This document shows positions 4,542-29,739 of a stretch of DNA of 64,000 nucleotides, piece after piece; the stretch's first letter is position 1, and each line of letters opens with the position of its first letter. Below the pieces are notes generated by a model. The model did not search any database, was not told the origin of the DNA, and saw only the letters and a list, made by a program, of their open reading frames with translations. The DNA is from Bacteroidales bacterium (GTDB lineage: Bacteria > Bacteroidota > Bacteroidia > Bacteroidales > Marinilabiliaceae), in NCBI GenBank assembly GCA_024401335.1, contig JAKSLH010000005.1, forward strand, positions 62,001-126,000. Direction: 5' to 3'. Made by a program: the position numbers and the translations under genes.

Positions 4542-7532
4542 TTAGAAGTTGAATGCAGCACCAACGGTGTACAATCCACCAATCTTGTCATTCATTACCG
4601 CCTCACGTTCCTTGCTATTGAACAAGTTGTGTGCATTAATGAATATCTCAAAACCGTTAGTAGGCTTATATCCCACCTTCATGTTAAGAGTGCAACGCTG
4701 CTTCATGTCGAATGAGCCATAGGCAAGTCTGTAAACTCGCTTACCCATCATATTAAGGTAAGCTGACACCTCAAGTTTTTCTATTGGCTTATAGATAAGA
4801 CCAATCATACCATAGAAACTTGGAGTACCCTTATGCTTATATCCATTGCGCTTTGTCTGTGGATGCTCATCACGGATATCTTTACCATATACCTGGCCGA
4901 TCTCATTCACACCAGTCTCGCGGTTGTAAGATGGGCCGAATGTATGTTGCGCTGCAGTCTGCATTGCTTCGTAATCGCTCATACCATTCTCCACAACATT
5001 CTGACGCCATTCCTTCAAGAGATTATTAAGCAAATTAGGCAATTCACCTGTCATCTCGTAATTCTTGAAGATATAGTTCATCATAGGATCGGTCACAAAC
5101 ATATCGAGCATAGCAGACTCTTCATCAGTAAATGATGGCTTGCTATAGCTCACAGCATTATTCTGCGAGCTAGTCAACATAGCCTTAATGTCGTTGATCT
5201 GCTGATATTCATAGTAGTTGTCAATGGTAGTCTTCTGAGTATTAACATTGAGTTTTGCAATAAGCTTGCTAGATATGATATAGTCCATGTTGACAGATAT
5301 ACCCATCTGATGAACCTCGTAAGGGAGCATTGAATACTTGACATCAGCATAAGGACGGAACACGCTACCCATATCAACCTTCTGTGCAAGATTCAGGAAG
5401 ATATAGTTGGACATGTAGTTGATGAACTTGTCATTAGAGAACATCAGACTCTGTATGCCATCAGGCATGCTATTTACGCCCTCTTGGATGCCGAGAAGGA
5501 TATGAGCAAAACGTTCAGAAGAAACCTGCATCGCACCATAGTTAGCCATCATTGCACCATAGTCCTTGCTGATTGAATAGAAGGCCTCAGCATCTACGAG
5601 TATGTTCATGATAGGTCTCCAACGATAGCCCACCTCAAAGTTGTCAATGTGCATGAGAGTAAGATCATCATTGCCACCAATGTGGAGTCGGCTTGGGTAG
5701 AACATATTGCTACGAAGCCATGTATAGTCGGCACATGAGTTAACAAGGTTAGCACCTCTGTTGGCACGGCCATATACAAAACGCACAAAGTTGTTTCCGT
5801 TAATAGAATAGCTAGCACCAAACTGCCAAGAGTGGCTCCACTTATCTGGGTTAGAAGTCTTGTCGGCACGATATGCACCAATGAGTCGGAGACCATCATG
5901 CACATAATTGACACGTACACTTGGCGCAATAGTATTGATATCTTTCTCACCGGTGAAAAGACCAGTCAGCATATTGTAACCGCTGTATGCCTTTATCGTT
6001 TCATTCCACTCTGGTTTAAATCCGTGACTTGGATCCTCGTAATGCCACTTATAGTTATAACGGAATCCCGGTTCACTAAGATCAAGGCCATAATTCCCTG
6101 GCATAGCCTTATCTGCTATTGATGCATTCAAAGGATCTTGTTCATCCCATACTGGCACATAGTCATCAGCGCAAGAGTGCTGGAAGAAGAATCCAGGGCG
6201 AACAGAAAAACCATTATCCATCTTGAAATCATATTCGGCCGAGATGTTGATATTGTTGATATTCATCTTATAACCAGGCACACCTACAACATACTCCTGT
6301 ATACCATTCATGTAATTGGCAACAAAACGCAAGTCTTTGATGTTGGCATCAAGATTAATATATGCAGTCTCTGACTTACGGCCATTGAGCGACACGATAT
6401 CTTCGTTGGCTGGTGAACCATTAACGTGTGACTTCTGATAACCACCAGAAAGGAATATATTCATCTTTTCAGCAGGTGTCCAGCACAGGTATCCATTGAC
6501 ACCCATTGTCTCACGGCTAAGTTTTGGGTCAGGGAACATTGATGTAAGCGGAGTCTCTGGCTCTGTGCCATCGAACAGGCGATAATCGCCATCTGCCATA
6601 ACATAAAGCTGCTTCATGCTTTGTATCTCCTCGAGCGAGAATTCACCACCATTAGATGCATCGATCATTGTTCCAAGAACAGAAAGGTCGGTGAGCTTGT
6701 CGCCTGGCGCAGGAAGTTCAGGTGTGCTACGTGTTGGAATATACTGTCCTGGATTTGGCAAAAGATAGAGCTTATCTGTATTACGCTCACGCTTCTGTAT
6801 GTTGGCAGTGATACCAAGAGCTATCTTATCGGTGAAAGCGCGACGGAGGCCAAGTTCACCTATCATTGTATTGTTGTTTCCCACCTGTACGTTACCGCTG
6901 GCAATGCTAGAAACAACACTTGGACGCTCAGTGATGATGTTGATAACGCCATTTACAGCGTTGGCACCATAGAGGGCACTACATGCACCACGGACAACCT
7001 CGATACGCTCGACATCTTCAATACCGATAGGAAGCATATCGAAATTGATAGCACCCATAACGTTGTTCTGCACAGGTCGACCATCAATCATGAGGAGCGT
7101 GTTGGCATTCTCCGTATAAAGGTATGTGTTATAATCAGGTATGTTGTTAAGACCACGCATATGGATATCGTAAATACCGTTGGTCTTTTCGCTTACTATC
7201 ATACCTGGAATCAGACGAAACGCCTCTTCGATGGTAGTCACACCATAAGTGCGCATCTCTCGGCGTGTGATAACAGTTGTTGACAATGGAGAGGTGAACG
7301 AATCCTCATCTTCTTTTGATGCAGAAGAGACATTCTTGTTCATGATAAGAGCAAAAAGCTCGTCTGGATTACTAACACCAACTGCCTTGATCGCTTCTGC
7401 GAAATCTTCCATAGAAAGATCCATAAGCTGATCTTCAGTCATATTGAGAACCTGTTCACGCGTATACTTATTCTGAGCACTCATGCCAACGAACACAAAA
7501 AGCATGAGCATTGAAACGAATAATTTTTTCAT
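4542..7532 (-). CDS. TonB-dependent outer-membrane receptor
   Basis: A 996-residue outer-membrane active transporter; the ligand is unknown. Start at 7532 is chosen because it begins a clean Sec signal peptide (MKKLFVSMLMLF... ending GMSAQ); longer frames upstream have no signal. A short acidic helical segment follows (about 22-65), then the plug (about 75-200) with VITRREMRTYGV, the LMIDGRPV strand, ERIEVVRGACSALYG and GVINIITERP. The rest is a 22-strand-type barrel that ends in an aromatic residue (AAFNF). It lacks the carboxypeptidase-like N-terminal domain of SusC and has no SusD neighbour, so it is more like a siderophore/vitamin/metal-type receptor. It lies 32 nt after the YfiR-like gene and probably shares its transcript. 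Confidence 0.92.
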   Translation of the reverse strand: MKKLFVSMLMLFVFVGMSAQNKYTREQVLNMTEDQLMDLSMEDFAEAIKAVGVSNPDELFALIMNKNVSSASKEDEDSFTSPLSTTVITRREMRTYGVTTIEEAFRLIPGMIVSEKTNGIYDIHMRGLNNIPDYNTYLYTENANTLLMIDGRPVQNNVMGAINFDMLPIGIEDVERIEVVRGACSALYGANAVNGVINIITERPSVVSSIASGNVQVGNNNTMIGELGLRRAFTDKIALGITANIQKRERNTDKLYLLPNPGQYIPTRSTPELPAPGDKLTDLSVLGTMIDASNGGEFSLEEIQSMKQLYVMADGDYRLFDGTEPETPLTSMFPDPKLSRETMGVNGYLCWTPAEKMNIFLSGGYQKSHVNGSPANEDIVSLNGRKSETAYINLDANIKDLRFVANYMNGIQEYVVGVPGYKMNINNINISAEYDFKMDNGFSVRPGFFFQHSCADDYVPVWDEQDPLNASIADKAMPGNYGLDLSEPGFRYNYKWHYEDPSHGFKPEWNETIKAYSGYNMLTGLFTGEKDINTIAPSVRVNYVHDGLRLIGAYRADKTSNPDKWSHSWQFGASYSINGNNFVRFVYGRANRGANLVNSCADYTWLRSNMFYPSRLHIGGNDDLTLMHIDNFEVGYRWRPIMNILVDAEAFYSISKDYGAMMANYGAMQVSSERFAHILLGIQEGVNSMPDGIQSLMFSNDKFINYMSNYIFLNLAQKVDMGSVFRPYADVKYSMLPYEVHQMGISVNMDYIISSKLIAKLNVNTQKTTIDNYYEYQQINDIKAMLTSSQNNAVSYSKPSFTDEESAMLDMFVTDPMMNYIFKNYEMTGELPNLLNNLLKEWRQNVVENGMSDYEAMQTAAQHTFGPSYNRETGVNEIGQVYGKDIRDEHPQTKRNGYKHKGTPSFYGMIGLIYKPIEKLEVSAYLNMMGKRVYRLAYGSFDMKQRCTLNMKVGYKPTNGFEIFINAHNLFNSKEREAVMNDKIGGLYTVGAAFNF

Positions 7533-7564
7533 AAAATTAGAAATTACTATATAACTGATTAATA

Positions 7565-8083
7565 CTAATCGACATTTGTACCAGAACGGAGTAGCTCCTG
7601 AGAGCATGTCAAGCCATAAGACTGAAGATTCTTACTTGACACCTCATAGGCTAGGGCACCATTTTTATTTACAAATGATATACCTGCTCCGTGTTCACAA
7701 AAACCGCCCTTGCCCGACACAATAAGCACGTTATTACCCTTCTGCGACTCAACGAGCTTCTGAATCTGATCACTCTTTGATTCACCCAAGAACACTACAT
7801 CGGACTTCTGGATCTGCGCGATAGTTGAAGCTTCAAGGACAACAATGCTTCGACTACCAATCTTACGGGATGCAACACTTTTCTTTAGTGCAGACGCCAT
7901 TTCGTTGTCACCTACAATTGTAATCACAAAATCTGAATTGGACGCCGCCGAGTTTGGCCAAGAGACTCCCTTTGCAAACTTGTAAAGATACATGGCCTTA
8001 AATTGAGCTGCTTGACCTGCCGATTTAACACTTGGAATAATCAATACAAGCAGCGCAATGATCATTTTTAGACATAACCTCAT
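7565..8083 (-). CDS. YfiR-like (DUF4154) exported protein, copy 1
   Basis: A 172-residue protein with a signal peptide (to about residue 25, ...SVKSAGQA) followed by a single DUF4154/YfiR-like domain: the FKAMYLYKFAKGVSWP strand-helix near the start, VITIVGDNEMASALKK, then VLIVSGKGGFCEHGAGISF and the closing LRSGTNVD. In Pseudomonas YfiR is a periplasmic repressor of a diguanylate cyclase; that role is not transferable here without a partner. It is nearly identical in its mature part to the next gene upstream (8312-8827), so the pair is a tandem duplication. It sits 32 nt before the TonB receptor, which suggests a shared periplasmic or receptor-linked role. Confidence 0.82.
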   Translation of the reverse strand: MRLCLKMIIALLVLIIPSVKSAGQAAQFKAMYLYKFAKGVSWPNSAASNSDFVITIVGDNEMASALKKSVASRKIGSRSIVVLEASTIAQIQKSDVVFLGESKSDQIQKLVESQKGNNVLIVSGKGGFCEHGAGISFVNKNGALAYEVSSKNLQSYGLTCSQELLRSGTNVD

Positions 8084-8311
8084 AGCTGTATTTTTTGATA
8101 GAACTAACCAAATTTGTAAAACAATTTTTACATTTCAAAACAGAAAAAATCATTTATTGGCACAATATCTAACATGTCACAAAGAATAATCAGATTTGAC
8201 CAAAAACTAATTTATCTGACGAAAGAACAACAAAAAACAAGACTACTGAAAGCTATTCAACATATTTTAGCTAAAAACAGGGCTATATCATCGGGACAAT
8301 AACACGGTGAA

Positions 8312-8827
8312 TTAATCGACATTTGTTCCCGAGCGCAAAATCTCCTGAGAGCAAGACAGACCGAATTTTTGTAGATTCTTGCTAGAGACTTCATAAGCTA
8401 ATGCACCATTCTTATTTACGAAGGATATACCTGCGCCATATTCGCACCATCCACCCTTACCAGAAACGATAAGCACATTGTTACCATTTTGCGACTCTAT
8501 AAGCTTCTGTATCTGATCACTCTTAGACTCACCAAGGAAAATCATATCCGACTTCTGTACCTGTGTTATTGTAGAGGCCTCAAGGACTACGATTCCACGA
8601 CTACCAATCTTACGGGATGCGACACTTTTCTTTAGCGCAGTTGCCATCTCGTTATCACCAACTATTGTTATTACAAAGTCACCACTGGAACTTGCGCCAG
8701 GCCAAGACACTCCCTTCGCAAACTTATAAAGGTACATAGCTTTGAATTGGGCTGCCTGACCAAAGGACTTGATGCATGGCAATGATATCAGCACAAGCAT
8801 CAGGATTGATCTGATAAATATTTTCAT
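8312..8827 (-). CDS. YfiR-like (DUF4154) exported protein, copy 2
   Basis: Paralogue of the gene at 7565-8083. The start at 8827 gives a 171-residue protein with a signal peptide (MKIFIRSILML... ending KSFGQ); the earlier in-frame ATG at 8878 lies upstream of the promoter and is unlikely. The mature parts share long identical stretches (for example FKAMYLYKFAKGVSWP, ESKSDQIQKL, VNKNGALAYEVSSKNL) and differ by scattered conservative changes. A 228-nt spacer separates the copies. No catalytic residues are recognisable; the fold is a small alpha/beta domain. Together with the TonB receptor downstream it makes a three-gene leftward unit. Confidence 0.82.
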   Translation of the reverse strand: MKIFIRSILMLVLISLPCIKSFGQAAQFKAMYLYKFAKGVSWPGASSSGDFVITIVGDNEMATALKKSVASRKIGSRGIVVLEASTITQVQKSDMIFLGESKSDQIQKLIESQNGNNVLIVSGKGGWCEYGAGISFVNKNGALAYEVSSKNLQKFGLSCSQEILRSGTNVD

Positions 8828-8848
8828 ATACGTTAGATTTATTGCTAA

Positions 8849-8879
8849 CAAATATGGAATAATTTTTTGATATAACAAA
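8849..8879 (-). promoter_or_regulatory. Promoter of the YfiR-like/TonB receptor unit
   Basis: Minus strand: TTTG (8876-8879), 19 nt, CATATTTG (8849-8856), one mismatch from TAnnTTTG. It lies 21 nt before the ATG at 8827. Confidence 0.55.
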
Positions 8880-8924
8880 TAGTTTTAGACCTTTTTTACA
8901 TTTATCGACTTGATACAAGCCTAA

Positions 8925-9260
8925 TTACAAAGAAACGAACTTTGCTCCGACGCCATCGAATTTATTGATATCAAAGGAGCATACAAGCATTAACTGTACT
9001 TTATTTCCTACTGACAAGGTTGCCTGCGAAGACCTCAGTTGAAACTGACATTGATTGATGAAGTCCTCTTTGGATGAAAATGTAAAAGGATTAACCTTTG
9101 GGATTATAACACCTGCAAAAAAACGGGTTGACGCCATCTCGTGGAGAGTATCTCCACACTCACATATGGAGACTATTTTACCCTCTGAATCAAGTTCAAT
9201 TATCGGATACCGACCTAAAGAGCCATCAGTACGCAAATAAAGGTGGGAGGAGTATCTCAT
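8925..9260 (-). CDS. Small conserved protein, resembles the N-terminal part of amidohydrolases
   Basis: A 111-residue protein without signal peptide or membrane segment; I do not recognise a named family. The first 55 residues (HLYLRTDGSLGRYPIIELD, then GKIVSI and FFAGVIIP) resemble the beta-sandwich start of cytosine-deaminase-like amidohydrolases, where the metal-binding HxH would come next. Here that region reads KVNPFTFSS and the metal site and barrel are absent. Its ATG overlaps the end of the DUF4296 gene by 35 nt in another frame, which implies translational coupling and supports it as a real gene. It is either a stand-alone derived domain or a decayed enzyme. Confidence 0.6.
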   Translation of the reverse strand: MRYSSHLYLRTDGSLGRYPIIELDSEGKIVSICECGDTLHEMASTRFFAGVIIPKVNPFTFSSKEDFINQCQFQLRSSQATLSVGNKVQLMLVCSFDINKFDGVGAKFVSL

Positions 9261-10089
9261 CGAACTGAATACTGTCGGTTATTTGATATGGCATATATGT
9301 AATAGACACATTTGACAATGTCGCCTTTGTCTTTTTAAACTCAGACGACTTCATCAGGTCAACCTTCATCTTTGTAGCGCAAAGAGTATCACGCACAGCA
9401 TACTCTAACTCAGCCTTATGCTGTAGATGTGACAAATCAAGAGAGACAGTAGCCGTATCAGAAATTGTGTCATTATAAACAACTATCATCTCCATCAATG
9501 GTCGCTCTTTGGCCTCATTATCACGAAGGAATGTATAGTTCATCGAGAAACTCACCTTGCCTCCGCGAATCGAATCAAGGTCATACTCAAACCTCAGATC
9601 CTTCCCTTTGACAGAGTCTGCTGGTATTATAGGAACATGCAAATGTTTCTGTCCTTGCCAGAAAGAGACACGAAGTGAATCGTTAAGATGGGTAATAAGT
9701 TTAGCTATAGAATCTCGCTTATCGATTATTACAGAATAGTCACTTTCTCTCTGAGTAAGTATATTTACAAGTATCTCATAAACCTTGGCATATTTGTCTG
9801 GATGTGCAGAATACCATGAAATAGCAGAATCATATTCAGCCTTATTGAGGCCATATCTATCAAGTATCGTGTGATACGCGCTTTCTGGGCCCTTGTCGTT
9901 CTTACCTGTCGCTGAATAGAGATTACCCTTTACCTGAATCAATGCATCAGCAATATATACGTCAGCCATCATCTGAGCCATGCGTCTCTCCGACGGAACC
10001 ACATTGCGAGACCGCTGTATAAGGACATACGCGCCGACAATCAGCACTAGCAAGGCTATGGATGCAATTGTAAGGGTTCTTTTGTTCAT
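9226..10089 (-). CDS. DUF4296 domain-containing membrane-anchored protein
   Basis: Bacteroidota-specific family of unknown function. The start at 10089 (MNKRTLTIASIALL) is chosen because it lies 4 nt after the sugar-transferase stop and directly precedes the single transmembrane helix (about residues 5-23); in-frame ATGs at 10104 and 10110 would overlap the upstream gene. The helical DUF4296 motif follows (VPSERRMAQMMADVYIADAL, about 30-50), with a region rich in Tyr, Asp and Ser; the C-terminal half looks beta-rich. It sits in the polysaccharide operon between the sugar transferase and the small protein, so a role in envelope assembly is an inference from position. Confidence 0.75.
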   Translation of the reverse strand: MNKRTLTIASIALLVLIVGAYVLIQRSRNVVPSERRMAQMMADVYIADALIQVKGNLYSATGKNDKGPESAYHTILDRYGLNKAEYDSAISWYSAHPDKYAKVYEILVNILTQRESDYSVIIDKRDSIAKLITHLNDSLRVSFWQGQKHLHVPIIPADSVKGKDLRFEYDLDSIRGGKVSFSMNYTFLRDNEAKERPLMEMIVVYNDTISDTATVSLDLSHLQHKAELEYAVRDTLCATKMKVDLMKSSEFKKTKATLSNVSITYMPYQITDSIQFDEILLPPLFAY

Positions 10090-10093
10090 AGAT

Positions 10094-11518
10094 TTATTTG
10101 CCATCTGCACGGAACACAGTGCGAATAGTCTTAAAGATAATGACCATATCGAGAGACAACGACCAGTTGTCTATGTATTCCATATCCATGTTCATCCACT
10201 CTTCGAAAGTGATCTTGTTACGCTCACGAGCCACCTGCCACAAGCAAGTGATACCTGGTTGCATGGCAAGACGACGCAACTGCCAACGTTCGTACTGTTC
10301 GACCTCCTTTGGCAGTGGTGGACGAGGACCAACAATCGACATGTCGCCTATAAATACATTAATGAACTGTGGGAACTCATCGATACCGGTCTTGCGCAGC
10401 AAACGACCAACACGAGTGATACGAGGGTCGTTGGCCATTTTAAACACAGGGCCATCCATCTCATTCTGCGACATGAGCTTCTCTTTGAGCTCTTCCGCAT
10501 TTATGACCATTGTTCGGAACTTATACACATCGAACACACGGCCCTTAAGACCCGAACGCTTCTGCTTAAAGAAGATCGGCCCCTTTGAGTCAAGCTTGAT
10601 AAGTAGCGCTATGATAATAAAGAATGGTAATCCGCACAATATCACACAAGACGAGAATAATATGTCGAACATACGCTTGAAAAGCATAGCGACATAATTT
10701 GTCGGTGTATTGGTTATTGTAATTACAGCATTTGTATCGAAATAACGCAACTGAGTGTTCTTTGACAATCGGTTAAGGAACTGAGAATAGAGTCGGAATG
10801 TAACACCTAGCTCATTACACAAGTCAAGGTAACGAGATATCTCCTGTGAACTGTCATAGCCCTTGGCATAGATAAGCTCATCAACATCCTGTGTTATAAC
10901 ACTATCTACATCGACCTCAGACGAGTCGTAGACAGGGAACACACCATCATACTTCTTGACTATATATGAATCACCTATAGCGCCAACGACCTTGTAGCCC
11001 CACTCGTAACGTTTATGAAGAAGACTCAAAAGCGAATCACCTCCCTTGTCACATATAAAGAACACCTTTCGGTTGTTATAGCCTTTTTTACGAGCCTTAC
11101 GCAAGCCCCAATAGAAAAGCAGCTTAAATGTAAGAGAACTAATAGTACTGAGTGCGCCAAAGAGCAGAAGCATATGGCGTCCGTAATTAGTAAGTCCTAA
11201 GATAACCGATGTAAATGTTATGAGCATAATGCCCAAAACATTCTCTACAATATGGAACAAGACAATATAACCATAGGAACGGCTACGATATACCTCATTA
11301 AGCTTCAACCACGTATCAAGAGTTGCCCAATAGAGAGCAATAAATACGCATGTTATAATAAAGTCAGGATTCAATATATGTAATATGCTAGCATAGCTGC
11401 TACCATAAACGACAGCAACAGATATAAAGTATGACACAATAGCCATGAAAACTGTTGCGACAGTCAGCATGACCATCACAAATCTGGCTCTATTGCTAAG
11501 TGTATCCTCTAGATTCAT
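10094..11518 (-). CDS. Undecaprenyl-phosphate sugar phosphotransferase (WcaJ/WbaP type)
   Basis: Starts a polysaccharide repeat unit by moving a sugar-1-phosphate from a nucleotide sugar to undecaprenyl phosphate at the inner membrane. The 474-residue protein has four to five N-terminal membrane helices (about 10-130), a soluble Rossmann-like central part (about 140-270) and the catalytic bacterial sugar transferase domain from about 275. That domain starts with the membrane helix after KRMFDILFSS and holds the conserved KFRTM, RRTGIDEFPQ-like (here LRKTGIDEFPQFINV), SIVGPRPP and QPGITCLWQV motifs. It lies 47 nt downstream of manC, so the starting sugar may be made from GDP-mannose, but the sugar cannot be told from sequence. 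Confidence 0.92.
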   Translation of the reverse strand: MNLEDTLSNRARFVMVMLTVATVFMAIVSYFISVAVVYGSSYASILHILNPDFIITCVFIALYWATLDTWLKLNEVYRSRSYGYIVLFHIVENVLGIMLITFTSVILGLTNYGRHMLLLFGALSTISSLTFKLLFYWGLRKARKKGYNNRKVFFICDKGGDSLLSLLHKRYEWGYKVVGAIGDSYIVKKYDGVFPVYDSSEVDVDSVITQDVDELIYAKGYDSSQEISRYLDLCNELGVTFRLYSQFLNRLSKNTQLRYFDTNAVITITNTPTNYVAMLFKRMFDILFSSCVILCGLPFFIIIALLIKLDSKGPIFFKQKRSGLKGRVFDVYKFRTMVINAEELKEKLMSQNEMDGPVFKMANDPRITRVGRLLRKTGIDEFPQFINVFIGDMSIVGPRPPLPKEVEQYERWQLRRLAMQPGITCLWQVARERNKITFEEWMNMDMEYIDNWSLSLDMVIIFKTIRTVFRADGK

Positions 11519-17517: not shown

Positions 17518-18156
17518 ATGACAAAAAATGCCAAGATAGCAATAGGCGTAGTCGCTGCTACACTTATCATTGACCAGATTATAAAGATATGGATCAAGAC
17601 AACAATGCATCTTGGTGAAGAGTTCAATGTATTCGGCAACTGGTTTATAATTCACTTTGTGGAAAACTACGGCATGGCTTTCGGCATGGAAATGGGAGGA
17701 AGCATCGGAAAGATATTCCTGTCAGTATTCCGTATTGTTGCCGTAGGGGCCATAATATACTACCTAGTCAAGAGATGCCAGCGAGATGGCGACGCGAACA
17801 CGTCGTATGTCACATGTATCTCGTTAGTACTTGCAGGAGCTGTAGGCAATATTATCGACTCGGTATTCTACGGCGTCATTTTCGATTCTAGCATTGGACA
17901 AGTTGCTAGCATATTCCCTCCAGATGGCGGTTATAGCACTTGGTTGCAAGGACGAGTTGTTGACATGTTCTATTTTCCATTGATAGAAGGCAGATTCCCA
18001 GATTGGTTGCCTATATGGGGAGGTGAGACATTTATTTTCTTCAGGCCTGTCTTCAATTTTGCAGACGCTGCCATATCAGTAGGCATGGCATGGCTTCTGT
18101 TGTTCCACAGAGACACTCTCAGCAACGAATTGGCTGAAGAAAAATCCGCAAAATGA
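17518..18156 (+). CDS. lspA: Lipoprotein signal peptidase LspA
   Basis: Inner-membrane aspartyl protease that cleaves the signal peptide of prolipoproteins after lipidation. The 212-residue protein has four membrane helices. The catalytic pair is Asp149 in GRVVDMFYFP and Asp183 in FNFADAAISVG, and the GNIID motif is at 110-114. An insertion of about 25 residues between GNIID and VVDM, and a longer loop before the second Asp, make it larger than the E. coli enzyme (164 residues); such insertions occur in Bacteroidota. Its stop overlaps the next start by 4 nt (ATGA), so the two are coupled. Confidence 0.95.
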   Translation: MTKNAKIAIGVVAATLIIDQIIKIWIKTTMHLGEEFNVFGNWFIIHFVENYGMAFGMEMGGSIGKIFLSVFRIVAVGAIIYYLVKRCQRDGDANTSYVTCISLVLAGAVGNIIDSVFYGVIFDSSIGQVASIFPPDGGYSTWLQGRVVDMFYFPLIEGRFPDWLPIWGGETFIFFRPVFNFADAAISVGMAWLLLFHRDTLSNELAEEKSAK

Positions 18157-19832
18157 GACCCTTAAAACAGCTTTTCTTCATATTGCTTCTTGCAATATCA
18201 GCAGCACCGGTCAACGCCGCAAGCAATTGGTGTGACACACTAAATGTCAGTGCAGAATTGTCAATTAGCGGTGCAACAAACAGCAAACTACACCCTTTAT
18301 GGAGCTATTCCCAGGAATGGGGGAAATACACTCAATATAAGCAAGGAGAGGCATTGGTTCACCTAAAAGCCGACTACAGGATTGCCAATTTCAGATATTT
18401 CACGATGCATGCAGGACTTGGCGTAGTAGGCAAGTCAGAATTAAAACGTAGTATGATTCACGAAGCATATCTTGCTGGCAAACTATTCATTTTCGATTAT
18501 ACCGCTGGCATGCAAGCTTTCTCGCCTCTTGCTCAATATGACCGCATGACATCAGGTAATTTCTTGATGTCTTCAAATGCTCGTCCAACACCACGCATCG
18601 GTGTCGGGCTGTTTGATTATTGGAGCGTACCATACACTCATGACTGGATTCAGCTAAAGGGAGGAATGTACATCGGTCGTCTTTTCAACGAAGACTACGA
18701 CAAGGAGTACACAAAGACACATACAAAAGATGTCCTCTTTCACGAAAAATTTGCTTATCTACGTTTAGGAGGGTGGTATGCGAAGCCTTATCTTGGCCTT
18801 ACCCATAGCGTAATGATGGGAGGAACGTTAGCTGACGGCACCAAACTACCTATAGACTTCTGGAGTTCTTTTGTTGCTAAAGGGTCTCAGCAATTCACAG
18901 GTAAAACAAGAGGAGAGGCAACAAACGCAGCAGGCGGACACCAAGGATTATGGGATGCCGGATTGGACATAGATTTTGACGCTATAAATGCAACAGTATA
19001 CTGCAAAAGGCCATTTACCGATGCTACAGGCAAAAAATACTTCGACGAAAGAAGCGGAGACTTTTACCTTGGTACGGTAATAACACTCCCAAAGTCAAGA
19101 TTTATCAAATCATTTTCCATAGAGTGGATGAAGACAAGCAAACAAGGTGGCGAGGGAACACCAGACCCTATTGGTCTTGATAAATATGGCAAAGAAATAC
19201 TATTATATCCAGGTGATTATCCAGAAGGGGCAGAAGCAATAACCAAGTGGATGTATGAACATTTCGACAAAGACGAATTGGATGAATGGGCTGCCAAGAA
19301 TGGTCCATATGAAGATATAGGAAAGATACAGTGGTTCCTGGAGCACAAATGGAATCACGGACTTTTCTTTGGAGGACGTTCTAACTGCCTAAGCAACTCT
19401 TACTATCCTCAAGGGTGGACAGTAGAAGGACACACCATGAGTTCTGCATACTTTCACACACAACAGACCGTTGACATTTATGGAAGTGAGTATGCTTGGC
19501 AACACCTCGTTGCTGTTCCCAATTACAGAATCAATGCAATAACAATGGCCATAAACGGCAACTGCAGCGACAAGATTTCATACTTCTTGAAGATTGGTGT
19601 AACCAAAAACCACGGCAACCTAATAGAAAAATACGATAGAGGTGCATATAGCTGGACCCTTGCGGAAAACTATTATTTCAAGACGTCAAAGAAAGAGTAT
19701 TACACTACACTATCTGTTGATTACAAATTTAATAGCGGTCTGTCTCTAAAAGCAACTTATGCAGGTGACTTCGGAGACTTATACAAATCAACAGGTCTTA
19801 GGCTAAGCGCTATATACACGCTTAACAAGTAA
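18153..19832 (+). CDS. Wzi-like/capsule-assembly type outer-membrane protein
   Basis: A 559-residue exported protein with a signal peptide (MRPLKQLFFILLL... ending VNAAS) and a beta-barrel pattern of alternating hydrophobic and aromatic residues. It resembles the Bacteroidota proteins annotated as capsule assembly Wzi family: an early HPLWSYSQEWG, RPTPRIGVGLFDYWSVPYT in the middle, and a C-terminal run of strands ending RLSAIYTLNK. Wzi in E. coli anchors group 1 capsule to the outer membrane; a comparable role here is inference. It overlaps lspA by 4 nt and is convergent with a LicD gene, and polysaccharide genes lie on both sides of this region. Confidence 0.62.
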   Translation: MRPLKQLFFILLLAISAAPVNAASNWCDTLNVSAELSISGATNSKLHPLWSYSQEWGKYTQYKQGEALVHLKADYRIANFRYFTMHAGLGVVGKSELKRSMIHEAYLAGKLFIFDYTAGMQAFSPLAQYDRMTSGNFLMSSNARPTPRIGVGLFDYWSVPYTHDWIQLKGGMYIGRLFNEDYDKEYTKTHTKDVLFHEKFAYLRLGGWYAKPYLGLTHSVMMGGTLADGTKLPIDFWSSFVAKGSQQFTGKTRGEATNAAGGHQGLWDAGLDIDFDAINATVYCKRPFTDATGKKYFDERSGDFYLGTVITLPKSRFIKSFSIEWMKTSKQGGEGTPDPIGLDKYGKEILLYPGDYPEGAEAITKWMYEHFDKDELDEWAAKNGPYEDIGKIQWFLEHKWNHGLFFGGRSNCLSNSYYPQGWTVEGHTMSSAYFHTQQTVDIYGSEYAWQHLVAVPNYRINAITMAINGNCSDKISYFLKIGVTKNHGNLIEKYDRGAYSWTLAENYYFKTSKKEYYTTLSVDYKFNSGLSLKATYAGDFGDLYKSTGLRLSAIYTLNK

Positions 19833-19835
19833 CAA

Positions 19836-20774
19836 CTAATCCGTATATAGCAAACGGACACGTTCTGTATATCTCTCAGGATATTTCTTCAGTTCTTCAG
19901 AAACCTCACCATATGGTCGAGTAGCATCCATATATTTCTGGCCATGATCTGTTGGCAAATGCAACGGAGTCATATAATCCTTACCGTAGTAACAAACTAA
20001 AGCATCATCAGTATCAGCAGGCGCAGGGAATTGAGTGTTTTCAAATGGAAGCCATATAGTCTTGTCATAAGAAGACCTGTTCCTTATATTTTTCCTATTG
20101 CTATACCTGTATGTCAGAATAGACACTCTCTTTGACTTGTCGGCATCTACTTTCCTGAAAATGCTTTCAAACAGTGCAAAGGCCTTTTTGTCAGACACAA
20201 CAGAATAAATCACGTTTGAGAACATCTTCAAAACCTTTTTGCCAAATGTCTTGTTATCACAAGGCTGTGAATAATAGCTTCTAAGTGTTTTCTTTATAAT
20301 CATTGAGGAAGTCCTTTGACAAAAACGCTTAAAGCCATTCTCCATGAACCCATCAAGAACAAATATATCAACCTCTATTCCTCTGCAATATTGACAATCC
20401 AGTTCATTCATTGACAGAGAAGAAGTACGAACATCTCTTAACTGAGCATGTCCCTTGTAATAACCTTTGTCAGAATACGCTGTCTGGAAAAAATAAGGAT
20501 ACGAAAATTCTTTGTCAGCTATCTTCAATAACTTGTCATAGTCTTTCCTTAACATGACGAAATCGATATCGTCATCCCATGGAATAAAACCCTTATGACG
20601 CACAGCACCCAGCAACGTTCCGCTATCTATCCAACATTTCAGACCATTGCGTTCACATACTTCAACAAGTTTTTCCGCCAAATTCAAACTAGTGGCCCAG
20701 ACTTGCTTCATTTCTTTGCTAATACGATAGTTCAAACGTACCTCTTCGTCATAAAAATCCTTAGGAAGTTCCAT
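19836..20774 (-). CDS. LicD family phosphotransferase (copy 1)
   Basis: LicD enzymes have a nucleotidyltransferase fold and move a phospho-substituent (phosphocholine, phosphoribitol and others) from a CDP-linked donor to a surface glycan. The 312-residue protein shows WIDSGTLLGAVRHKG (about 48-62) followed by the metal-binding FIPWDDDIDFVM (about 63-74), both diagnostic, and EVDIFVLDG around residue 133. There is no signal peptide, so it is cytoplasmic or membrane associated. It is transcribed away from the cytidylyltransferase fusion gene at 20908, and the 133-nt gap can hold divergent promoters. The substituent it moves is unknown. Confidence 0.88.
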   Translation of the reverse strand: MELPKDFYDEEVRLNYRISKEMKQVWATSLNLAEKLVEVCERNGLKCWIDSGTLLGAVRHKGFIPWDDDIDFVMLRKDYDKLLKIADKEFSYPYFFQTAYSDKGYYKGHAQLRDVRTSSLSMNELDCQYCRGIEVDIFVLDGFMENGFKRFCQRTSSMIIKKTLRSYYSQPCDNKTFGKKVLKMFSNVIYSVVSDKKAFALFESIFRKVDADKSKRVSILTYRYSNRKNIRNRSSYDKTIWLPFENTQFPAPADTDDALVCYYGKDYMTPLHLPTDHGQKYMDATRPYGEVSEELKKYPERYTERVRLLYTD

Positions 20775-20865
20775 GGTTTATCTATTTTGCCACAAAAATA
20801 GCAATGATTTTCGTTAGACCAATCATGTTGTGTTTCTTAGTTATTTCTAGTTGCCAAAATATTTC

Positions 20866-20873
20866 TATATTTG
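20866..20873 (+). promoter_or_regulatory. Candidate -7 element of the cytidylyltransferase-fusion operon
   Basis: TATATTTG matches TAnnTTTG and lies 34 nt before the ATG at 20908. A good -33 is not seen at 19-21 nt. Confidence 0.4.
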
Positions 20874-20907
20874 TCACCTGCAATTGAGCTACGCAGTTCA
20901 CTAACAA

Positions 20908-22254
20908 ATGGTAAAAGTTATTACATACGGAACATATGATTTGCTCCATCAAGGACACATCAATCTTTTAAAACGAGCCAAAGAATTGGGAGACTACCTA
21001 ATAGTTGGAGTCACGAATGATAATTTTGACCGTGACAGAGGCAAGTTGAATGTACGGAACAATGTTTTAGAGAGAGTCGAAGCCGTCAAAGCCACGGGGT
21101 TAGCAGACCAGATCATCATAGAGGATTATATCGGCCAAAAAGTTGATGATGTTCAAAAATATGACATTGACATTTTTGCCATCGGATCTGACTGGGAGGG
21201 CAAATTTGATTATCTCAACGAATTTTGCAAAGTGGTTTACCTACCACGTACCGAGGGCATCTCATCTACTATGCTTAGAGCCGAAAGCAGTCAAATTGTG
21301 AAGGTTGGTATTATCGGATGCGGACGCGTTGCCCAAAGATTCCCATCTGAGGCTAATGTTGTAAGCAGCGTATCAGTATGTGCCGCTTATGACATAGATC
21401 CTGTTGCCACCCAAAAGATAACAGACAGACATGAAGACATCAAACCATATGAAAACATCGATGACTTCTATAACGCTGTAGATGCTGTGTACATAGCGAC
21501 ACCTCACCTGTCGCATTGTGAGTACATAAAGAAGTCTATCGATAGAGGGAAACATGTCCTGTGTGAAACGCCAATGAGCCTTAACGGCAAAGAAGCGAAA
21601 GAGCTCTATTCTCTCGCCGAGAAAAAAGGCTGCATACTGATGGAAGCCAACAAAACAGCTCATTGCCCTGCATTCAACCATTTGATCGCTATGATCAAAT
21701 CGGGTATGATAGGTGATGTGGTAGATATCGAAGCATCACTATCTCAACTACTTTCCAACAAAGACGGCAGAGAATTTGACCCTCTCCAGGCCGGAGGTTC
21801 ACTATACGAGGAAGGCAGCTATCCATTATTGCCAATACTGAAACTAATGGGCATAAATTATGACGAGCTACATTTATACTCTCGAATGGAGAATGGCATA
21901 GATATATATACCAAAGGACTATTCAAATATCCCAAAGCGACGTGTTCATTTAAGGTAGGACTAGGCGTAAAAACAGAAGGAGATCTGGTCATTTCTGGCA
22001 CGAAAGGATATGCTTATGTTCCTGCTCCTTGGTGGAAAACTGATTATTTTGAATTCAGATACGAAAACCCCAACGACAACAAAAAATTCTTTTACAAGTG
22101 GGACGAGTTCGGACTTAGATACGAAATACAAGAATTCATCTCATGTATCTGCAACCACCGTTTCTCATCAGCAAGATTACGCAGAAGAGAAAGCATCTGT
22201 ATGGCAGAGATAATGCATCAATTTACCGAACGGAAAAACTTTTTCGAGATATGA
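20908..22254 (+). CDS. Fused cytidylyltransferase (TagD-like) and Gfo/Idh/MocA-like oxidoreductase
   Basis: A 448-residue two-domain protein. Residues 1-130 form a glycerol-3-phosphate-type cytidylyltransferase: [12 protein letters not shown] with the HxGH at 14-17, [16 protein letters not shown] and [11 protein letters not shown] at 114-124. This part should couple CMP to a small alcohol phosphate. Residues 131-448 are a Gfo/Idh/MocA-like Rossmann protein: [13 protein letters not shown] at 133-145 and [11 protein letters not shown] at 193-203. The usual EKP motif reads CETPMSL (Glu220-Thr221-Pro222), so the catalytic or cofactor-binding lysine is replaced by threonine. The stop overlaps the aminotransferase start by 4 nt. 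Likely role: making a CDP-linked donor for LicD; the exact compound is not deducible. Confidence 0.85.
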
Positions 22255-23339
22255 AAAGCAAGGAAATGATAAACTTCACTGTTGGTCCAGTTCAATCCAG
22301 TGAGGCAGTTAGATCAATAGGAGCAGAACAAGTACCATATTTTCGCACACAGGAATTCTCTCAATTGATGCTTGAGAATGAATCACTGATTAAAAAATTC
22401 GCCAAGGCAACGGATGATTCTCGTGTCGCATTCATTACCGGCTCTGGTTCAGCTGGCATGGAAACAGCCATAATGAACACATTGACGTCAAAAGACAAGG
22501 CATTAGTCATAAACGGAGGAAGCTTTGGAGCTCGATTTGTAGAACTGTTAGACTTACACGAAATTCCATATTCTGAAATAAAACTCGAGCCAGGCAAATC
22601 ACTCAAGAAAGAGCATCTTACGCCATATGAGGGACAAGGATACACTACTTTTCTTGTAAACAAACACGAGACTTCTACTGGTGTCCACTATGACATGCAG
22701 TTGATAAGTGAATTCTGCAAACGCAACAACCTGTTTCTAATCGTTGACTGCATAAGCACATTCCTAGCTGACCCATTTAATATGGCAGAGTTGGCCGCTG
22801 ACGTAATGATCACAGGGTCACAGAAAGCACTTGCTTGTCCTCCAGGCATTGCCGTAATGTGTTTGTCACCCAATGCAATCTCACGTATTGAAAGTACAAA
22901 ATGCAAATGCCAATACCTAGATCTCAAGCTAGCGTTGAAAAATGCCGAGAGAGGTCAAACGCCATGGACTCCTGCAGTTTCAATATTACGCCAAATCAAT
23001 GTAAGACTAAAAGAGATTGACAACAATGGTGGTGTTGAGGCAGAGATAGAAAGAACAAAAAATCTGGCAGACTATTTCAGAAACAAGATCAAAGAACTGC
23101 CTTTTGAAATATACTCTGAATCATTATCTAACGCAGTCACACCATTACATCCAACGACGGCATCGGCGTATGATATCTTTTTGAAGATAAAAGATGAGTA
23201 TGACATGTGGATATGTCCCAACGGAGGCAATATGAAAGACACAGTTTTCCGTGTAGGGCATATAGGAGCATTAACTACCAACGACTACGACAAACTCATT
23301 TCTGCATTTAATGACCTTAAAAACAAAGGGTTTATATAA
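22251..23339 (+). CDS. PLP-dependent class V aminotransferase (PhnW/serine-pyruvate type)
   Basis: A 362-residue fold-type I enzyme. The ATG at 22251 is preferred: it overlaps the upstream stop (ATGA) and opens with [15 protein letters not shown], the usual N-terminus of alanine-glyoxylate/2-aminoethylphosphonate aminotransferases. [14 protein letters not shown] (about 61-74) binds the cofactor phosphate, Asp166 in LIVDCIST contacts the pyridine ring and Lys192 in [12 protein letters not shown] is the PLP lysine. The substrate is unknown; PhnW-type enzymes act on aminophosphonates, and others of this family act on small amino acids. The context (CDP-transfer fusion before, LicD after) suggests it makes an amino group on the LicD substituent, or a phosphonate precursor. 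Confidence 0.87.
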
Positions 23340-23340
23340 C

Positions 23341-24159
23341 ATGAAAGAACTACAGCTAAGAGAGATACAGCAGATGGGACTAAAAGTATTGAAACATGTA
23401 CACTCCTTCTGCGATGAACATAGCATAAAATACTCTTTAGCATACGGAACATTAATCGGCGCGGTACGCCATAGGGGTTTTATACCTTGGGATGATGACA
23501 TTGACATCGTAATGCCACGTCCTGAATTTGACCGATTCTGTCAGACGTTCACATCAAACGATGAATATAAACTAATAGCGCCAAAGGACAGTTATCTACA
23601 GTTTGCCAGAGTATGTGACATAAAACACACAATAGCAAAAACCACACTCCCTTGGTCTAACCAGACAACCGGTGTTTGGATTGACATATTCCCTTTGGAT
23701 GGTGTAGCAGAATCGAAAGAAGACTTTCTGAAGGAAATCGAACCACTATACAACATAGCCAAAATCAAGCGACGCATCAGAAGAGGGCGTTTCCAGAAAC
23801 TATCGTTGTCACTAGGTTTCAAAGAGATTTTCAACTGCCTGTCGAAGAGATTCAATTACAGGAGATACGATTTCGATGAAATCAACCTACAACATGAAAA
23901 AATAATGAAAAAACACCCCTTTGATGGCAGCACATACATCGGTCAATTATCTTGTCTAGATGATCCCGCATCAGAACATCACCTAGCAAGTGACTTTAGT
24001 ACATATACGAAACTGACATTTGAAGACTCAGAATTCATGTCAATAGCCGGTTACGACAATTTCTTGACCAATTGCTATGGTGACTATATGCAACTTCCTC
24101 CTGAAGACAAAAGAGTGCCCAATGGAGAATCAAAGATAAAGTTCTACTGGAAAGAATGA
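23341..24159 (+). CDS. LicD family phosphotransferase (copy 2)
   Basis: A 272-residue LicD protein starting 1 nt after the aminotransferase stop, so the three genes from 20908 form one operon. SLAYGTLIGAVRHRG (about 32-46) and FIPWDDDIDIVMP (about 47-59) give the nucleotidyltransferase-type active site with its Asp cluster. WIDIFPLDG follows near residue 117 and the family C-terminal region is present. It is shorter than copy 1 and clearly diverged from it. It is the best candidate for the enzyme that transfers the substituent made by the two upstream genes to a glycan. Confidence 0.9.
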   Translation: MKELQLREIQQMGLKVLKHVHSFCDEHSIKYSLAYGTLIGAVRHRGFIPWDDDIDIVMPRPEFDRFCQTFTSNDEYKLIAPKDSYLQFARVCDIKHTIAKTTLPWSNQTTGVWIDIFPLDGVAESKEDFLKEIEPLYNIAKIKRRIRRGRFQKLSLSLGFKEIFNCLSKRFNYRRYDFDEINLQHEKIMKKHPFDGSTYIGQLSCLDDPASEHHLASDFSTYTKLTFEDSEFMSIAGYDNFLTNCYGDYMQLPPEDKRVPNGESKIKFYWKE

Positions 24160-24163
24160 ACAA

Positions 24164-24203
24164 AAAAAAGGCCCTTACAAATAAACTGTAAGAGCCTTTT
24201 TTA
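24164..24203. terminator. Bidirectional terminator between LicD copy 2 and the small barrel protein
   Basis: AAAAAAGGCcCTTACA (24164-24179) pairs with TGTAAGaGCCTTTTTT (24187-24202) with one mismatch; both strands have a T-run after the stem. Confidence 0.85.
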
Positions 24204-29222: not shown

Positions 29223-29297
29223 GCGGCCCGTTCGTCTATCGGTTAGGACGAGAGATTTTCATTCTCTAAAGAGCAGTTCGATTCTGCTACGGGCTAC
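29223..29297 (+). repeat. 75-bp direct repeat, first copy (holds tRNA-Glu)
   Basis: Identical to 29661-29735. The identity extends only 2 nt before and 1 nt after the tRNA, so the repeat is essentially the tRNA gene itself. Confidence 0.9.
29225..29296 (+). tRNA. tRNA-Glu (anticodon TTC), copy 1
   Basis: The acceptor stem GGCCCGT pairs with ACGGGCT (a G-T wobble at the first pair), discriminator A at 29296. The anticodon stem AGAGA/TCTCT encloses the loop TTTTCAT, giving anticodon TTC, and GTTCGATTC forms the T loop. CCA is not encoded. It lies 64 nt before rpsT. Confidence 0.95.
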
Positions 29298-29660: not shown

Positions 29661-29735
29661 GCGGCCCGTTCGTCTATCGGTTAGGACGAGAGATTTTCAT
29701 TCTCTAAAGAGCAGTTCGATTCTGCTACGGGCTAC
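29661..29735 (+). repeat. 75-bp direct repeat, second copy (holds tRNA-Glu)
   Basis: Identical to 29223-29297; the copies are 438 nt apart and flank rpsT. Confidence 0.9.
29663..29734 (+). tRNA. tRNA-Glu (anticodon TTC), copy 2
   Basis: Every base is the same as in the first copy; same anticodon TTC and no encoded CCA. It starts 47 nt after the rpsT stop and is followed within 6 nt by a strong terminator. Confidence 0.95.
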
Positions 29736-29739
29736 CTGA

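Follow-up and report, generated by a model that had tools for sequence, protein, structure and literature searches.

A TagD-like cytidylyltransferase–Gfo fusion with aminating or reducing partners and LicD in gut Bacteroidales: a possible route to a CDP-activated amino-alcohol decoration

Phosphocholine and other surface decorations that combine a cytidine diphosphate (CDP) donor with LicD play a part in host mimicry and colonisation, and in the Lic-1 pathway (LicA, LicC, LicD) the donor is made in the cytoplasm before a LicD-family transferase attaches the phospho group (accessible portion of PMC10434233). In Campylobacter jejuni HS:5, CDP-6-glucitol is synthesized by a cytidylyltransferase and a dedicated carbonyl-modifying enzyme (PMC10918830, sections available), and C. 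jejuni Cj1437 forms serinol phosphate by transaminating dihydroxyacetone phosphate (DHAP), L-glutamate being the amino donor (PMC12096443 and PMC12409886, partial texts). PntC/AepZ phosphonate tailoring relies on a cytidylyltransferase and a class V transaminase to supply a decoration of the cell surface (PMC6697681, in its available part). Here we analyzed a three-gene operon in a 64,000-nucleotide stretch (the window; contig JAKSLH010000005.1, positions 62,001 to 126,000) of a gut-type Bacteroidales bacterium whose genome is 84.64% complete. The operon encodes a TagD-like cytidylyltransferase domain joined to a Gfo/Idh/MocA-like domain (the fusion), a class V aminotransferase (AT) and a LicD phosphotransferase. 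A search of the open-licence literature found no description of this gene set.

As presented in Table 1, the coordinates of the open reading frames (ORFs) and the Pfam domains agree with the preliminary description of this DNA, in which the fusion overlaps the AT gene by 4 nt and LicD follows after 1 nt. These distances hold for the chosen starts, namely the ATG within the ATGA overlap for AT (22251; the longest ORF begins at 22143) and 23341 for LicD (longest ORF from 23311). In general terms, we consider it likely that a CDP-amino-alcohol phosphate is made here and transferred by LicD, as the preliminary description had proposed for a possibly amino-containing substituent; this is still the best reading and has gained comparative support from the exchange of aminotransferase classes and from LicD, N-acetyltransferase and glycerophosphotransferase neighbours. 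The best explanation as a whole, for which our confidence stays slightly below even, is more specific. AT would aminate an acetol-type keto-phosphate, probably DHAP, yielding a 2-amino-alkyl phosphate (serinol phosphate). This amino phosphate would be joined to cytidine monophosphate by the TagD-like domain, and from the resulting donor, CDP-serinol or a closely related compound, LicD would transfer the phospho-amino group to a glycan. For the Gfo-derived domain, we propose that it gates or positions the substrate and supplies no needed redox step. In its sister versions, the module has a reductase in place of the aminotransferase, and a polyol phosphate would be made. We infer each of these chemical steps, their order and the identity of the attached group from the computed gene set, swap rule, pocket signature and lost motifs given below.

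The N-terminal domain of the fusion matches PF01467 (CTP_transf_like) at residues 5-125 (3e-19), and this match together with the HxGH and RTxGxS motifs places the protein in the nucleotidyltransferase superfamily. Residues H14, H17, R44, K46, R114, T115, S119 and S120 are invariant in 88/88 fusion rows. The domain resembles TagD/TarD in its fold and in both motifs, and its closest solved structures are the TagD-type 2b7l and 1coz; it differs from them in being fused to a Gfo-like domain and in reaching only 122.2 bits against glycerol-3-phosphate cytidylyltransferase TIGR01518 (equivalog cut-off 165.4). Moreover, S94 (91/91 fusions) and G64 (89/91) stand where the true stand-alone TagD of a Fibrobacter locus, L034, has the Asp of GDDW and the Arg of RYVD; this TagD (212 bits to TIGR01518) adjoins the fusion of the same locus. 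A reading in which AT is a bystander and only a known donor is made (CDP-glycerol, CDP-ribitol or CDP-choline) would account for the TagD-like fold and for LicD, but appears very unlikely given the score below the TagD cut-off, the true TagD present in L034 besides fusion and AT, the lack of IspD, choline kinase and LicC genes in the operon, and the co-occurrence of AT and fusion in Bacteroidota, Fibrobacterota and Bacillota. The operon likewise differs from Lic-1 in having no choline kinase, choline permease or LicC, and its amino group would come from transamination; LicA, LicB and LicC were absent among the ORFs of 19836-24159, the rest of the genome not having been searched. The mismatch with licABC and with the ribitol and TagD glycerol pathways, noted in the preliminary description, was thus confirmed.

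When genome contigs were scanned with the fusion, at least 593 pattern matches were obtained, and 559 of these encode a protein related to it at E <= 1e-3 (single-domain relatives possibly included). We analyzed the best 80 loci of the at least 559 relatives, which are near full length and represent the nearest kin of the window fusion, not a random sample. Their fusions are 68-82% identical to it over nearly the full length, so the gene set is not a chance assembly. Most of these loci come from Bacteroidales metagenome-assembled genomes (MAGs), with 7 from Fibrobacterota and one from a MAG named Clostridia. Near-identical fusions (end branches 0.006 and 0.008) occur in L071 and L082, whose MAGs, 'Clostridia bacterium' and 'bacterium', share an isolate prefix, and it is possible that the sole Clostridia locus among the 80 is misbinned. 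Neighbour clustering placed a partner gene within 2.6 kb of the fusion in 80/80 loci, frequently with a 4-nt overlap. The partner varies: two families of short-chain dehydrogenase/reductase (SDR) account for 34 loci (SDR-A) and 29 loci (SDR-B), class V AT for 13 and a HisC-like aminotransferase for 4. Four SDR-B partners, masked by antisense ORFs, were recovered by BLAST, and in L087 both SDRs lie within 2.6 kb of the fusion. Eleven further fusions were added (window, L026-L030, L119, L123, L130-L132). Their partner is AT in the window, L026, L027, L028, L030 and L123, HisC-like in L131 and L132 (with a GNAT N-acetyltransferase in between in L131) and SDR-B in L130; in L119, AT lies 4.6 kb from the fusion and is not adjacent. 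In Ruminococcus albus 7 the order is LicD, AT, fusion, LicD, GNAT, LicD. Of 295 genomes sampled from the order, only 6 held the fusion (E <= 1e-80) and 5 held AT (E <= 1e-60), and viral contigs scanned for AT gave 8 pattern matches and no relative. Overall, the module is real and conserved, and would represent a new form of decoration by CDP donor and LicD.

The exchange of partners was followed on a main fusion tree of 81 of the 88 rows (7 distant rows dropped; 18 aminating, 63 reducing) and on a larger tree of 91 rows, 89 of them labelled. Between the aminating and reducing classes we observed only 2 changes on the main tree, compared with a shuffled mean of 16.4 and a least value of 14 in 100 shuffles, and 4 changes on the larger one. 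Within classes, SDR-A and SDR-B changed 16 times on the main tree (shuffled mean 21.1, least 16 of 100), and AT and HisC-like partners 6 times for 6 HisC rows on the 91-row tree (shuffled mean 5.5). The two aminotransferases thus mix freely, the two SDR families nearly so, and the aminating and reducing classes hardly at all, which suggests that the class V and HisC-like aminotransferases appear isofunctional and interchangeable, that the two SDR families may be isofunctional as well, and that the fusion would be tuned to the class of its partner. Partners also travel independently of the fusion: the AT of L030 is 83% identical to that of the window and its fusion 49%, and the HisC-like protein of L132 is 82% identical to its main-clade kin, with a fusion 46% identical to the window's. 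On a LicD tree of 68 rows the two classes changed 14 times (shuffled mean 21.7, least 17 of 100); therefore LicD follows the class only partly.

The aminotransferase of the window belongs to class V (PF00266, Aminotran_5; 5e-19), and K192, D166 and R334 are kept in 26/26 aligned ATs, including a transaminase of the 2-aminoethylphosphonate (AEP) type from L120. It is established that HisC aminates an acetol phosphate. With DHAP as the acetol phosphate, the product would be serinol phosphate, which is the TagD substrate with NH2 in place of OH and suits a TagD-like activator. Human PSAT1 is a class V enzyme. It converts DHAP to serinol phosphate very slowly (PMC9283133, accessible text). With Cj1437, the operon would share the transamination of DHAP for a surface polysaccharide; in that system, however, an ATP-dependent ligase joins serinol phosphate as an amide, which is then dephosphorylated, and the available text describes no CDP donor or LicD. 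Serinol as the attached group is a tentative proposal, plausible though clearly short of an even chance. Another small amino phosphate might pass through otherwise identical steps: glycolaldehyde phosphate or serine phosphate would give ethanolamine phosphate, and the other candidate is an aminated C4/C5 alditol phosphate. The named relatives scoring best for AT are BhcA and PhnW-AepZ, which act on aldehydes, the HisC-like partners also score 138-149 bits to CobD, a decarboxylase, and AT adjoins a MobA-like transferase in the Fusobacterium locus L124. We nevertheless regard such a substrate as decidedly unlikely, because the HisC-like partners scanned (3/6) score higher to HisC (226-237 bits, under the cut-off of 276.55) and the cytidylyltransferase is nearest the C3 enzyme TagD among solved structures.

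AEP itself was the other example named in the preliminary description, and here the comparison led to serinol being favoured and AEP disfavoured. PntC/AepZ tailoring uses a MobA-type transferase and requires phosphoenolpyruvate (PEP) mutase. AT does match the AEP transaminase family TIGR03301 (PhnW-AepZ), but at 147.2 bits it lies under the cut-off of 360.8. No PEP mutase was found in the source genome at its 84.64% completeness, and the one sub-cut-off match (30.4 vs 31.5 bits) is ketopantoate hydroxymethyltransferase (PanB, 375.6 bits). L120, moreover, has AT beside a separate AEP set, and an AEP pathway with AT as its transaminase is extremely improbable. In that locus (L120:7567-13879, genome G263), AT and a TagD-like gene stand next to an AEP-type operon with a PEP mutase fused to a cytidylyltransferase domain, a thiamine pyrophosphate decarboxylase and a separate nucleotidyltransferase-transaminase fusion.

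The C-terminal part of the fusion matches PF01408 at residues 131-246 (8e-22) and PF22725 at residues 258-369 (9e-8), and the PF01408 match and the fold assign it to the Gfo/Idh/MocA family. The catalytic lysine of the EKP motif, carried by the four solved relatives aligned, is Thr221 in the window and is missing in 90/91 fusions. Only L029 has Lys221; its fusion adjoins no SDR, AT or HisC-like partner of the module's families, and its neighbours appear to be an AA_kinase, an Ala_racemase_N protein and an aminotransferase of class I/II. The best sites separating the 18 aminating from the 63 reducing rows fall in this domain, and among the 22 best printed, residue 43 alone lies in residues 1-126 (overlap 0.41). 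Residue 280 is Gln in 18/18 aminating rows and Lys or Arg in 63/63 reducing rows, and residue 302 is Gln, Glu or Asn in all 18 and Leu, Met or Ser in all 63. Residue 287 is Gly in 17/18 aminating and 0/63 reducing rows; residue 298 is Ala in 16/18 of the former and Ser in 62/63 of the latter. The block holding these sites (residues 271-310) adjoins the motif of Tyr305, which aligns to a conserved tyrosine of 2o48 that we take to be catalytic and is retained in 82/91 fusions (Ser in L064). The Gfo pocket thus probably encounters a molecule that differs between the classes.

Two fusions with aminating partners, L059 (AT) and L064 (HisC-like), nest amid reducing fusions on the tree, and their block 271-310 is nearer the aminating class than their reducing neighbours (0.89 vs 0.74 and 0.73 vs 0.63). 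A clear margin of this kind is confined to the block, L064 being about even in residues 127-200. Recent local gene conversion was considered as the origin of this switch and rejected, because the nucleotide identity of the block to aminating rows is at most 0.76, as elsewhere in the gene; an older conversion may be responsible. Among reducing fusions, we also observed a third pocket class with Ile221, Arg280 and Ser302 in 9 rows (L043, L065, L077, L084, L092, L097, L098, L102 and L106), with both SDR types.

In the clade of L030, L123, L131 and L132, whose partners are all aminating (AT or HisC-like), G139 and A142 of GxGxxA, E301 and Y305 are all replaced in 4/4 fusions, and identity to the window is 0.14 in residues 127-190, compared with 0.71 in the cytidylyltransferase and 0.69 in residues 351-410. 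In addition, relatives of AT (33-64% identical) are found together with a different cytidylyltransferase and with no Gfo-like gene in the stretch read, as judged by BLAST against clusters or, for L125, by annotation. TagD-like proteins accompany AT in this way in L120 (AT 64%), L121 (38%) and Bacteroides finegoldii L125 (33%), and a MobA-like transferase in L124 (53%); in L122, AT (35%) lies with a GNAT and the contig ends there. As four aminating fusions have lost their NAD and catalytic residues and AT occurs without Gfo, amination probably needs no Gfo redox chemistry. The L125 genes (5348-10533 of the plasmid NZ_OY725904.1) form a teichoic-acid-like set of a lipoteichoic acid synthase family protein, a phosphotransferase, a CDP-glycerol glycerophosphotransferase, a class V aminotransferase and a cytidylyltransferase.

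The same domain keeps alive a different order of steps, in which the fusion would make a CDP-polyol, Gfo would oxidise it to a CDP-ketone, and AT would aminate or the SDR reduce this ketone, the donor again being a CDP-amino-polyol in the aminating case. GnnA/GnnB and WlbA/WlbE oxidise and then aminate UDP-sugars, and the structural neighbours of the fusion include the nucleotide-sugar enzymes KijD10, WlbA and GnnA (the search mostly covers residues 128-448). Aminotransferases and reductases, both carbonyl enzymes, stand in for one another next to a single core; within the main clade, the partner class is mirrored in the Gfo pocket and not in the cytidylyltransferase; and GxGxxA, E301 and Y305 are kept in nearly all main-clade fusions. 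CDP-6-fructose of C. jejuni HS:5 is an earlier example of a CDP-ketone; there, unlike here, the proteins are separate, the carbonyl enzyme is an SDR only and the product is hexose-sized (PMC10918830, as far as its text is available). The missing EKP lysine, the four fusions devoid of NAD-motif and catalytic residues beside aminating partners, and the Gfo-less AT contexts speak against this order. We consider it unlikely, though of real weight, and we lean towards amination before activation.

Both LicDs of the window belong to the LicD family (149.6 and 154.3 bits to PF04991, cut-off 22.6; 2e-43 for that of the operon), and LicD, an N-acetyltransferase and a glycerophosphotransferase are recurring neighbours of the module. 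A GNAT was seen beside or near 7 aminating versions (L048, L059, L064 as a 98-aa ORF, L122, L123, L131 and L132), a link to the aminating class that is suggestive only. Glycerophosphotransferase-family proteins (PF04464) adjoin L035, L057, L026-L028, L121 and L125 with 24-86 bits (cut-off 22.1); together with the GNATs, these genes fit an amino-triol, perhaps N-acetylated. The number of LicDs equals that of donors in 5/7 Fibrobacter loci. The fusion-AT donor comes with one LicD in L033 and L038; two LicDs accompany an IspD-like gene and an epimerase/dehydratase (a possible second donor) in L037 and L040, and a second cytidylyltransferase-like gene in L039. The rule fails in L034, where a true TagD is accompanied by three LicD ORFs, and in L051, which has two LicDs and no second donor gene seen, and which the window resembles with its one donor and two LicDs. 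In L037 (6148-7925) and L040 (6169-7925), the gene after IspD had been considered a TarJ-like reductase and proved to be an NAD-dependent (extended-SDR) epimerase/dehydratase; the pair recalls that for CDP-6-fructose/CDP-glucitol in C. jejuni HS:5.

Several observations weigh against the pathway proposed for the window. The pocket signature is more natural if Gfo acts on a molecule than if it is idle, a class-blind cytidylyltransferase fits one common CDP product formed before the partner acts, and the signature fails in distant aminating fusions (Thr or Ser at 280, Asp or Trp at 302). DHAP is the simplest and not the sole acetol-type phosphate, the nearest solved structure to AT (3f0h, 1.9e-148) is labelled merely 'Aminotransferase', and no characterised enzyme of this family was found. 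Within 3 kb, a GNAT occurs in 3/17 aminating vs 0/63 reducing loci, a weak control since the profile was built from aminating loci; weak GNAT matches lie 4.9-7.1 kb away in four SDR-A loci, and none was seen in most aminating loci, the window among them. The reducing locus L081 likewise has an adjoining glycerophosphotransferase-like gene.

Extended to all versions, the comparison might describe a modular CDP-donor system, widespread in gut Bacteroidales, in Fibrobacter and in some Bacillota, in which a redox-dead or re-purposed Gfo would read amino versus hydroxyl, the aminating version (class V or HisC-like) would give CDP-serinol, the reducing version (either SDR) another CDP-triol, perhaps from sn-glycerol-1-phosphate, and LicD would deliver both. 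This full picture is speculative and, taken as one claim, unlikely. If the pathway proposed for the window holds, it adds to gut bacteria an amino-alcohol decoration built from a central metabolite. Vague annotations would then become a swap rule marked by a signature at the residue level; for main-clade strains, it could be used to predict whether the glycan bears an amine. A Gfo-like domain without its dehydrogenase residues and with a class-tracking pocket is an example, open to test, of an enzyme that has become a specificity domain.

Table 1. Features of the operon and its surroundings in the window
Feature	Position	Strand	Basis and remarks
TagD-like cytidylyltransferase–Gfo/Idh/MocA fusion gene, 448 aa	20908-22254	+	ORF list; cytidylyltransferase residues 1-126, Gfo-like residues 128-448
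Cytidylyltransferase domain of fusion	20908-21285	+	HxGH and RTxGxSS catalytic residues intact
Gfo/Idh/MocA-like domain of fusion	21289-22251	+	Pfam, structural comparison
Thr221, at place of EKP-motif lysine	21568-21570	+	Alignment
Residues 271-310 (Q280, E302), separating aminating and reducing classes in main clade	21718-21837	+	Alignment
Class V aminotransferase (AT), 362 aa	22251-23339	+	PF00266; Lys192 Schiff base, Asp166, Arg334, roles assigned from family
LicD phosphotransferase, 272 aa	23341-24159	+	PF04991, LicD tree
Second LicD, divergent from operon	19836-20774	-	ORF list, PF04991
TATATTTG, candidate Bacteroidales -7 box of operon	20866-20873	+	TAnnTTTG motif match
TATTTTTG, candidate -7 box of divergent LicD	20793-20800	-	TAnnTTTG motif match
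17-pair hairpin with A and T runs on either side, candidate terminator	24164-24202	.	Reported on minus strand; closes operon after LicD

The two LicD genes of Table 1 are the only LicD matches in the source genome, at its stated completeness, and the fusion is the sole match to the fusion protein there at E <= 0.001. The gap between the divergent LicD and the operon holds, in each direction, the motif TAnnTTTG, which we take to be the Bacteroidales -7 box consensus. Over the whole window this motif occurs 66 times vs 45.6 expected, with 1/100 shuffles as high, an excess in keeping with Bacteroidales -7 boxes. Terminator-like sites near the operon end are not enriched (3 vs 2.9 in shuffles). 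Between an lspA-like gene and the divergent LicD, positions 18153-19832 encode a 559-aa protein with a signal-like start; a Pfam/NCBIfam search gave no match for it, and by eye it has the look of an outer-membrane barrel. Two tRNA-Glu(ttc) genes lie 365 bases apart at 29225-29297 and 29663-29736.

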